DNA of 64,000 nt, taken from the NCBI RefSeq assembly GCF_008728635.1, contig NZ_CP044285.1, positions 3,906,001-3,970,000 on the forward strand, read 5' to 3'. Each line of letters starts with the position of its first letter. Position 1 is the first letter of the stretch. This document shows positions 61,756 to 64,000 of the stretch, piece after piece. The translations under genes were made by a program, and so were the position numbers. A model generated the notes under the pieces. That model saw only the letters and a program-made list of their open reading frames with translations, did no database searches and was not told the DNA's origin. Origin of the DNA: Hymenobacter baengnokdamensis. GTDB taxonomy: Bacteria > Bacteroidota > Bacteroidia > Cytophagales > Hymenobacteraceae.

Positions 61756-64000
61756 CTAAAACGGTGGTTCCTCGCCAAAGCTGTTGCTCTTGGGGAAGGG
61801 CACCGGCGAGGGCGGCGCGTCGTTCATGCGCGAGCCCAGGCGGATGGTGTTCGGCGCAAAGCCACCGCCCGGCGCGGGCCCACCGGCCGGTTCCGAGTCG
61901 AAGCTACTGGTTGGGAAGGAGTTGGACGAAAACGCCGGTGCGCCGCCGAAGCCGCCCGCATCTCCTCCCCCATCAAACCCGTCGAGGTCGGCAAACTTGG
62001 TGAAGCGGCCGATAAACTTGAGCTGCACCGTTTCGAGCGAGCCGTTGCGGTGCTTGGCAATAATCACCTCGCCCATGCCCTGAGTGGGGTTGCCCATCTC
62101 ATCTTCGGTAATCTTATAATATTCAGGCCGGTACAGGAAGATAACCATGTCGGCATCCTGCTCGATGGAGCCCGATTCGCGCAGGTCGCTCAGCTGGGGC
62201 TTCTTGTCGCCGCCGCGCGTCTCGACCGAGCGCGAGAGCTGCGACAGCGCAATAACCGGAATATTCAATTCCTTTGCTATTCCCTTGAGGGCGCGCGAGA
62301 TGCTGGCAATCTCCTGCTCGCGGTTGCCGCCCGGCCGGCCGGCCTCGCCGCCGCTCATCAGCTGGAGGTAGTCGATGATAATGAGCTGGATATCGTGCTG
62401 CGATTTGAGGCGGCGGCACTTGGCGCGCAGCTCGCGGATGCTGAGCGCGGGCGTGTCGTCGATAAAAATCGGGGCCGAGGAGAGCGAAGAAATCTTGTGG
62501 TTGAGCTGCGCCCATTCGTAATCGGCCAGGTTGCCCTTCTTGATTTTCTCGGAATCCAGCTCCGCCTCGGCCGAAATCAGACGATTGACCAGCTGCAGCG
62601 ACGACATTTCGAGCGAGAAAATGGCGACCGGCTTCTTGAAATCGACGGCCGCATTGCGCATGGCCGACACCACGAACGCCGTATTGTGCGTCACGGTGCA
62701 GTCGGCCAGCAGAAACAGGTGATTGCCGTCAATCTCGAAGCCGTAGTAATCGTCCTCTTTATCAAACTCGACTGAGATTCCGGTCATGCGCCAATCGACA
62801 GCGGAAGCCCAGGGATTCGCCTTTTTGCGCGCCACGCGCACCGGAATCTTATCTACGTCGCCGTAGAAGCGCACGCGCCACACCTCGCTCTCGTAGCCGA
62901 TTTTGCTGATGACGGCGCGCTTCTTCGTCAGCGACGTGCGGAAGCCCAGCGAATCGCACAGGAATTTAATCTGGCGGGCTAACTTCTTGTTTTTCTGAGT
63001 AATCTCGTAGCCATTGCTCACCACGTTGAGGTGGCCGTCGGAGTCGATAAGACCAGCCAGCAGGCGCAGGCGGTACTCGGTCGAGTTGACCAGGTAAGCC
63101 TGCGGAATGTGCTTGTTATTGAGCACGCCCAGCTGGCGCAGCTCGTCCTGCACCGAGTATTCGGCAACGCTCCCACCCTGCCGGCCGCGCGTAATGCCGT
63201 AGCTGTTGCAGCGGTCGGTTACTACGCCGGTGGTTACCTGCATGCCCAGCTCATCGGCGTACTGGTGCAGGTAGTCAATGATTTCGGCATCCTGGCCGGT
63301 GATGCGGCAATTGCCGGCAGCGCCGTCACCCAGCCACACACCCAGAAAATAAGGGTCGAGCGGCACCGTCTGTTCGGCAAACTCCAGGGCCACTTTGTAG
63401 CCTTTGTAGTTCGACTGAAACTTGGGGCCTTTTTTCAACCATTCACGAACCTCTATATTCAGCACGTCGCCGTGGCGGTGCGGCCCTTCGTTGCGGCTGC
63501 GCTTGAGCGAGAGAATGTGGCTCTCATTTACGCGGTAGTCGTCGCCTTTATTCTGGCGCACCCAGTACATGTTTTCGCGGCCACGCGCCAGGCTCAGCAC
63601 CCGGCGCGGCGTCGAGTCGTCGCCCATCAGCAGGTCGCCTTCGCGCACGTCTTCCACGCGGCGCAGCGTACCATCATACATCACCACCTTGGTACCCAGC
63701 GCCAGGCATTTACCCATGCCGGGCCGGGCCGCAATAATCACCAGGTCAGACGGTTGCCAGCCGCTCGTTACGCGGTCGAGCGCCGAGAAGCCGGTGGGCA
63801 CACCCGTCAATCCGTCTTTCTGGTGCTTCTTTTCTTCGAGCTCTTTAATGGCCTTCACCATCAAATCCTGCATCGAGTCGACGCCCTTGCGCATGTTGTC
63901 TTCCGACACCTGGAAGATGTTCTTCTCCGTGGCGTCGAGCAGCTCAAATACGTCGGTGGTTTCCTCGTAGGCGTCGCGCAGGATGTCGGTAGCGGTGCGA
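61756..64000 (-). CDS. dnaB: Replicative DNA helicase DnaB, intein-interrupted (5' partial)
   Basis: The coding frame enters from the right edge of the window and ends at the TAA complement at 61756. Host sequence visible first is the linker (EETTDVFELLDATEKNIFQ), then the RecA-like domain: GVPTGFSALDRVTSGW and ARPGMGK, the first part of Walker A. An intein of 342 residues follows, and the helicase resumes with TAFVVSAMRNAA, FSLEMSSLQLVNRL, the Walker B region IIIDYLQLMSGG, SQLSRSVE and SGSIEQDADMV. The last 75 residues are a Gly/Pro/Ser-rich tail. DnaB unwinds DNA at the replication fork, so splicing must restore Walker A for the cell to grow. The N-terminal domain and start codon lie outside the window. 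Confidence 0.96.
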   Translation of the reverse strand, partial: RTATDILRDAYEETTDVFELLDATEKNIFQVSEDNMRKGVDSMQDLMVKAIKELEEKKHQKDGLTGVPTGFSALDRVTSGWQPSDLVIIAARPGMGKCLALGTKVVMYDGTLRRVEDVREGDLLMGDDSTPRRVLSLARGRENMYWVRQNKGDDYRVNESHILSLKRSRNEGPHRHGDVLNIEVREWLKKGPKFQSNYKGYKVALEFAEQTVPLDPYFLGVWLGDGAAGNCRITGQDAEIIDYLHQYADELGMQVTTGVVTDRCNSYGITRGRQGGSVAEYSVQDELRQLGVLNNKHIPQAYLVNSTEYRLRLLAGLIDSDGHLNVVSNGYEITQKNKKLARQIKFLCDSLGFRTSLTKKRAVISKIGYESEVWRVRFYGDVDKIPVRVARKKANPWASAVDWRMTGISVEFDKEDDYYGFEIDGNHLFLLADCTVTHNTAFVVSAMRNAAVDFKKPVAIFSLEMSSLQLVNRLISAEAELDSEKIKKGNLADYEWAQLNHKISSLSSAPIFIDDTPALSIRELRAKCRRLKSQHDIQLIIIDYLQLMSGGEAGRPGGNREQEIASISRALKGIAKELNIPVIALSQLSRSVETRGGDKKPQLSDLRESGSIEQDADMVIFLYRPEYYKITEDEMGNPTQGMGEVIIAKHRNGSLETVQLKFIGRFTKFADLDGFDGGGDAGGFGGAPAFSSNSFPTSSFDSEPAGGPAPGGGFAPNTIRLGSRMNDAPPSPVPFPKSNSFGEEPPF
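62683..63708 (-). mobile_element. Intein with LAGLIDADG homing endonuclease, inserted in DnaB Walker A
   Basis: A 342-residue in-frame insertion between Lys and Thr of GMGK-T. It starts with the splicing nucleophile Cys (codon 63708-63706, CLALGTKVVMYDG), has a block-B-like NESHILSL, and ends with block F/G GFEIDGNHLFLLADCTVTHN, whose His-Asn pair (codon for Asn 62685-62683) precedes Thr, the +1 nucleophile. In the middle, LGVWLGDG and LLAGLIDSDG are the two dodecapeptide motifs of a DOD homing endonuclease, each with its catalytic aspartate. Both splicing and cutting activities therefore look intact. The P-loop is a known intein site in DnaB. GC content is similar to the host gene. Confidence 0.95.

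Follow-up and report, generated by a model that had tools for sequence, protein, structure and literature searches.

The gene for the replicative helicase DnaB in Hymenobacter baengnokdamensis, whose 3′ part lies at the end of a 64,000-nucleotide stretch of contig NZ_CP044285.1 (positions 3,906,001 to 3,970,000; hereafter the window), is interrupted in its Walker A motif by an apparently intact full-length intein with a PI-SceI-like two-motif LAGLIDADG endonuclease. Very probably, the element is a class 1 intein of the canonical type, placed in the P-loop of the housekeeping DnaB (site b), one that splices, homes, and is repeatedly gained and lost locally. Its main value lies in the genus-wide pattern: in a sample of 120 Hymenobacter genomes, one homing site is empty in 68 and in 51 holds an endonuclease-bearing intein that looks intact and is under selection. 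Decayed intermediates were not seen, and presence does not cluster on the tree. Under the homing-cycle model, an intein should decay once it is fixed (PMC3229294, available in part, which sets out models of intein persistence), and Hymenobacter, a bacterial genus with many species in culture, therefore provides a case where persistence without decay could be measured.

An endonuclease-bearing intein in the Walker A motif of dnaB

The insert comprises 1026 bases, or 342 codons without a stop, on the minus strand and in the dnaB frame, exactly between the Lys (63709-63711) and Thr (62680-62682) codons of GMGKT. A preliminary description of the sequence had placed it at 62683..63708, and these bounds are exact, running from Cys1 (TGC, 63706-63708) to Asn342 (AAT, 62683-62685). 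The uninterrupted form, ARPGMGKTAFVV, is found in 68 of the 120 genus genomes, which identifies the element as an in-frame insert between conserved host residues. The splice-junction residues first noted at the GMGK-T break, Cys1, His341-Asn342 (as THN) and Thr+1, recur in all 50 copies extracted from the 51 found in the genus; the remaining one, in G093, was not aligned, its gene being split over contigs. The same 50 share YRVNESHIL and a terminal TVTHN, and both LAGLIDADG motif aspartates are intact in each.

Three Pfam families score over their curated cut-offs within the intein (Hom_end_hint, E 2.9e-18; Hom_end, 8.4e-9; LAGLIDADG_3, 2.5e-8), and the host protein passes the NCBIfam DnaB equivalog TIGR00665 with 429 bits. 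A predicted structure model and its structural matches agree on a Hint fold. In the model, two LAGLIDADG helices (residues 119-128 and 210-224) end in Asp128 and Asp224, which align with PI-SceI residues 218 and 326, the catalytic aspartates of that enzyme. With the conserved aspartates, these matches bear out the earlier call of a full-length intein with a two-motif endonuclease in the DnaB Walker A motif. Chance resemblance to an intein is ruled out. The coordinates of the parts are collected in Table 1.

Table 1. Parts of the interrupted dnaB gene and its intein, with positions in the window.
Feature	Position	Strand	Evidence or remark
dnaB precursor, 3′ part within the window	61756..63999	-	TIGR00665 over cut-off; rest of gene upstream, outside the window (L009)
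End of N-extein (DnaB up to GMGK)	63709..63999	-	
Intein, 342 residues, CLALGT...TVTHN	62683..63708	-	
C-extein (DnaB from T of GKT to C terminus, 308 residues)	61759..62682	-	
Hint splicing domain, N-terminal half, residues 1-105, Cys1 nucleophile	63394..63708	-	Pfam Hom_end_hint; model strands between residues 7 and 105
Block B, N61-E-S-H64	63517..63528	-	Identical in 50/50 genus inteins; N61 and H64 without variation (alignment of 46)
LAGLIDADG homing endonuclease domain, residues 112-285 (approximate bounds)	62854..63375	-	Pfam Hom_end, LAGLIDADG_3; model helices 119-128, 210-224
LAGLIDADG motif 1, PYFLGVWLGDG, Asp128	63322..63354	-	D128 invariant (alignment of 46); aligns with PI-SceI residue 218
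LAGLIDADG motif 2, LLAGLIDSDG, Asp224	63034..63063	-	D224 invariant (alignment of 46); aligns with PI-SceI residue 326
Hint domain, C-terminal part, residues 286-342, blocks F and G, His341-Asn342	62683..62853	-	H341 and N342 invariant; Hint fold matches of the model
Thr+1, expected splicing nucleophile and Walker A threonine	62680..62682	-	Third base is 62680 (+3)
Upstream flank of insertion site	63709..63718	-	Intein-bearing and empty alleles differ at two synonymous bases, -1 (63709) and -10 (63718)

In the whole genome (G000, one contig of 4.43 Mb), the dnaB open frame has 971 codons. The precursor would be translated whole, with Cys1 and Thr+1 carrying the acyl shifts, after which His341-Asn342 would release the intein (calculated mass 38.9 kDa, against about 38 kDa in the preliminary description) and the exteins would be joined. 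With MNDRMDD as the assumed start, the spliced DnaB would have 553 residues (245 + 308) and a calculated mass of 60.1 kDa. Because the P-loop is broken while the intein is in place, DnaB would be active only after splicing. The free endonuclease would then cut dnaB alleles that lack the intein, at the same codons, and an intein-bearing copy would serve as the template for repair.

PI-SceI (the Sce VMA1 intein) differs in its length (454 residues vs 342), its host (a V-ATPase rather than DnaB), and its sequence (26% identity). A DnaB intein is also known from Rhodothermus marinus. Mycobacterial DnaB P-loop inteins of class 3 have no nucleophile at position 1; their pattern is not found here, where Cys1, Thr+1, and an endonuclease are all present. 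Site b of DnaB is described in PMC6195587, available in part, and is shared with the Mycobacterium P-loop inteins Msm DnaBi1 and Mle DnaBi; the mycobacterial class 3 intein described there has Ser+1 and no endonuclease. Insertion between K and T of Walker A is also described for TerL1-a of mycobacteriophages, a classic P-loop intein (PMC5050341, available in part).

The intein is common in Hymenobacter and has relatives in another phylum

The view that such inteins are not widespread in Bacteroidota was not supported. The comparison with the dnaB of relatives that the preliminary description had proposed gave a full-length orthologue in 51 of 120 genus genomes and an uninterrupted gene in 68; in one further genome (G108), no intact dnaB was found. 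As an intein it is ordinary, and it occurs in about two in five related species. The other 50 copies are 75-97% identical to the source intein, and none contains a stop codon. Among the 50 extracted, 46 have 342 residues and the others 340, 346, 349, and 349; there is no mini-intein among the 51 genus copies, all of which match over residues 1-342.

At E 1e-20, this intein was not found in the family's 84 remaining genomes. Among 390 genomes drawn from the order, 39 gave a match at E 1e-15. Of these, 15 lie outside the genus, and in four of the 15 (G374, G323, G318, and G429) the match covers the two Hint parts only, the endonuclease region being diverged, replaced, or shortened. A protein search gave 7144 relatives among 8000 scored candidates, and the best 80 of 245 loci from a scan of named genomes (G070 is H. 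setariae and G082 Hymenobacter sp. BRD67) include Hymenobacter, Spirosoma, Larkinella, Fibrisoma, Saprospiraceae, and Campylobacterota. At 11 Campylobacterota loci, mostly metagenome-assembled (L260, L262, L276, L284-L286, L288, L291, L294, L298, and L300), the intein is 61-66% identical, whereas the exteins are 26-36% (N) and 40-47% (C) identical, which points to transfer between phyla.

Viral contigs carry intein relatives of up to 58% identity, and at 22 of the 23 loci examined (80 fetched), the insert follows GK; the six host proteins checked by Pfam were DnaB, primase-helicase, RecD2-like, Clp-like, or AAA proteins. Of the 691 phage records with a match, 690 fall below 60% identity to the source intein; those among the matches listed are annotated as terminase, helicase, or hypothetical. 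Nineteen plasmid records gave a match, and three of these cover most of the query.

A literature search of partial coverage found no account of a Hymenobacter DnaB intein, and public records already name these intein-bearing proteins replicative helicases; we therefore claim no priority.

The endonuclease domain is under purifying selection

Ratios of nonsynonymous to synonymous substitution (dN/dS) were calculated by the Nei-Gojobori method, a simple one whose pairwise values are not independent here. The genus-wide median was 0.134 for the endonuclease domain and 0.134 and 0.132 for the two Hint halves; in 53 close pairs, the endonuclease gave 0.098 (G058 left out) vs 0.064 and 0.036 for the Hint halves. 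The endonuclease domain is constrained, although less so than the splicing domain. The DnaB exteins of the interrupted gene are likewise under purifying selection.

In the genome left out of the close pairs, G058 (Hymenobacter psychrophilus; L090 / L255), 91 consecutive residues within the first endonuclease half are only 44% identical to those of its close relative G003, while the rest is alike. The best match of this stretch among the loci compared, itself aside, is 53%, and a swap of an endonuclease half is possible.

Intein presence is out of step with descent

Intein-free dnaB genes occur very close to the source strain: the C-exteins of G080, G083, G104, G027, and G106 are 97-99% identical to that of the source, and G082, which has the intein, is 100% identical. 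On an extein tree of 116 genomes (G096 left out), intein presence requires 36 changes (shuffled mean 38), and 40 once the 60 bases to either side of the insertion point are excluded. An independent rpoB tree of 110 of the 117 genomes with a match (G013, G055, G060, G093, G096, G097, and G108 left out) requires 35, a count equalled or undercut in 192-208 of 500 shuffles (shuffled mean 36); supported branches force at least 26 of these changes. Because these counts are close to the shuffled means, intein presence is out of step with descent at this depth. We infer that the intein is an old resident of the genus with local gain and loss: it would be about as old as the divergence of the genus, persisting while homing repeatedly adds it locally and replacement by empty alleles removes it. 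Halobacteria inteins are comparable, as full and empty sites there coexist out of step with the species tree and the intein sequences appear compatible with vertical inheritance; in contrast to the 51 copies here, they include mini-inteins, many at one polymerase site (PMC4071816, available in part).

One probable case of gain can be pointed to. The G078 intein groups with the intein of the source strain's clade and is far less diverged than the dnaB and rpoB of G078, and transfer of the intein into G078 is likely from these comparisons. A stretch-by-stretch comparison of G078 with its relatives gave no sharp tract. The G078 dnaB (L015) exteins are unusually diverged from their own clade, with a long branch and odd base make-up, and its intein is not. 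Clade tests, for groups named after the trees were seen, gave mixed results: placing G112 with the other clade was rejected for the extein (p 2.7e-11), the reverse was not rejected on the intein (p 0.07), and the intein rejected a 25-row extein clade only weakly (p 0.043). Whole topologies rejected each other, a result given little weight, as the quick trees missed better ones in two tests.

Several observations weigh against an intein that still splices and homes. Block B has the form NxxH, keeping the His and carrying Asn where the consensus TxxH has Thr, and this is invariant in the 46 aligned inteins. Extein dN/dS is slightly higher in intein-bearing than in empty lineages (0.105 vs 0.084; 0.155 vs 0.114; G078, G096, and G097 left out). 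The named clade tests for the G078 transfer were not significant (p 0.27 and 0.48), and the raised divergence between intein-bearing and empty relatives (the same three genomes left out) by which co-conversion was sought is seen only within 30 bases of the site, among them position -1, which mostly follows codon context (see below). Distances correlate with rpoB at 0.72 for the intein and 0.73 for the dnaB extein, and each shares 14 of 46 splits with rpoB; the intein tree conflicts with rpoB to no greater degree than the extein tree, so tree conflict is no sign of frequent homing, and these figures speak against rampant homing over long distances. Finally, one ancestral intein followed by 39 losses fits the midpoint-rooted rpoB tree of 110 genomes too.

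The fit of the intein tree to rpoB, together with median divergence at four-fold sites that is close for intein (0.37), dnaB (0.39), and rpoB (0.41), favors a vertical relic, which entered once in the genus ancestor, was then only lost by empty-allele replacement, and whose endonuclease no longer homes. We consider this, the main alternative, unlikely. A dead endonuclease should decay, but all 50 aligned copies keep their motifs intact and purifying selection acts on the domain; in addition, the G078 intein was likely transferred, and the pure-loss history needs all 39 losses. A domesticated switch, in which conditional splicing regulates DnaB under stress and so keeps the intein in the genus, as has been suggested for the Mycobacterium smegmatis P-loop DnaB intein, is highly unlikely, although the insertion site is the same (PMC6195587, available in part) and an extra Cys337 lies near the splice end (DCTVTHN) in 15 of 50 inteins, the source intein included.

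The interrupted gene and other DnaB genes

That the host depends on splicing, as first proposed, has to be qualified. DnaB is essential in bacteria in general. In a PF03796 search at 1e-20, the interrupted gene was the sole match in 26 of the 51 intein-bearing genomes, including G090 (83% complete), G107 (91%), and G082 (94%). If DnaB is essential there, the interrupted gene, with its exteins under purifying selection and no other DnaB-family gene found beside it, must yield functional DnaB, which implies splicing.

The source genome itself has two further intein-free DnaB-family genes. One (L007:8929-10485; G000:C1, at about 1109 kb) lies near tape measure, replication-initiation, Rha-like, and integrase genes; the other (L008:7877-9277, at about 1754 kb) lies near integrase, invertase-like, S24 peptidase, and DUF1376 genes and adjoins McrBC and type I restriction genes. 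Judging by these neighbors, both are in phage-like islands. The preliminary description would have given way to an intein-free dnaB combined with a silent interrupted copy; intein-free genes do exist, and nothing seen suggests that the interrupted copy is silent. Least probable of all is that one of these genes does the work and the interrupted copy is dispensable, as both sit among phage-like genes, the first shares only 54% identity with the housekeeping DnaB across 218 residues, extra genes of this kind were not found in 26 of the 51 intein-bearing genomes, and the interrupted DnaB is under purifying selection.

Bases flanking the insertion site

We compared 480 flanking positions between 50 intein-bearing and 67 empty alleles (the 69 other genomes minus G108, without an intact dnaB found, and G118, with a broken frame). 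At p < 0.01, uncorrected, the sole differing positions were -193, -10, -1, and +3. The last base of the Lys codon, -1, is A in 67/67 empty and G in 40/50 intein-bearing alleles (p 1e-18). Synonymous resistance at -1 was considered and rejected, since the following codon accounts for most of the difference. In 163 control open reading frames from 39 Hymenobacter loci, which are not independent (many are the same neighbor genes in different species, and the window overlaps L009), the Lys codon is AAA before AC in 133/156 cases (56/64 in G-K-T) and AAG before TG in 23/32. In these frames, the choice of Lys codon is tied strongly to the next codon, AAA preceding AC and AAG preceding CG and TG. In the order's other genera, too, most of the empty sites listed have AAA at this codon.

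At +3, G is found in 39/50 intein-bearing vs 18/67 empty alleles. Thr codon context does not explain this (ACG in 29/133 after AAA and 44/135 after AAY), and in independent pairs the G+3 difference holds on both trees (median p 0.0026 for the extein, 0.0024 for rpoB). At -10, C is found in 43/50 intein-bearing vs 28/67 empty alleles, a difference that stands when pairs are taken from the extein tree (median p 0.021) and is lost with rpoB (median p 0.09); the empty sites listed elsewhere in the order usually have GGT at this codon. C-10 and G+3 occur together in 34/50 intein-bearing and 4/67 empty alleles. The pair may reflect a target preference of the endonuclease or bases carried along with the intein, and we regard it as a weak lead only, a short list of candidate target bases. 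A long-lived balance of full-length inteins and empty alleles, without mini-intein intermediates and with some of the empty alleles shielded by synonymous changes no more than 10 bases from the insertion point, would fit the signature but seems rather unlikely.

Other inteins and inserts

DnaB proteins of 1044-1337 residues that carry an extra PF14890 intein splicing domain, and so probably hold two inteins each, include L252 (Hymenobacter gummosus) and account for 12 of the 120 proteins listed by the protein search. In a Pfam scan of the L331 copy (L331:325-4374, G011), a different LAGLIDADG-bearing insert, probably also an intein, was found in a SNF2-family helicase; a further 13 genus genomes gave weak matches, in frames of 1129-1689 residues.
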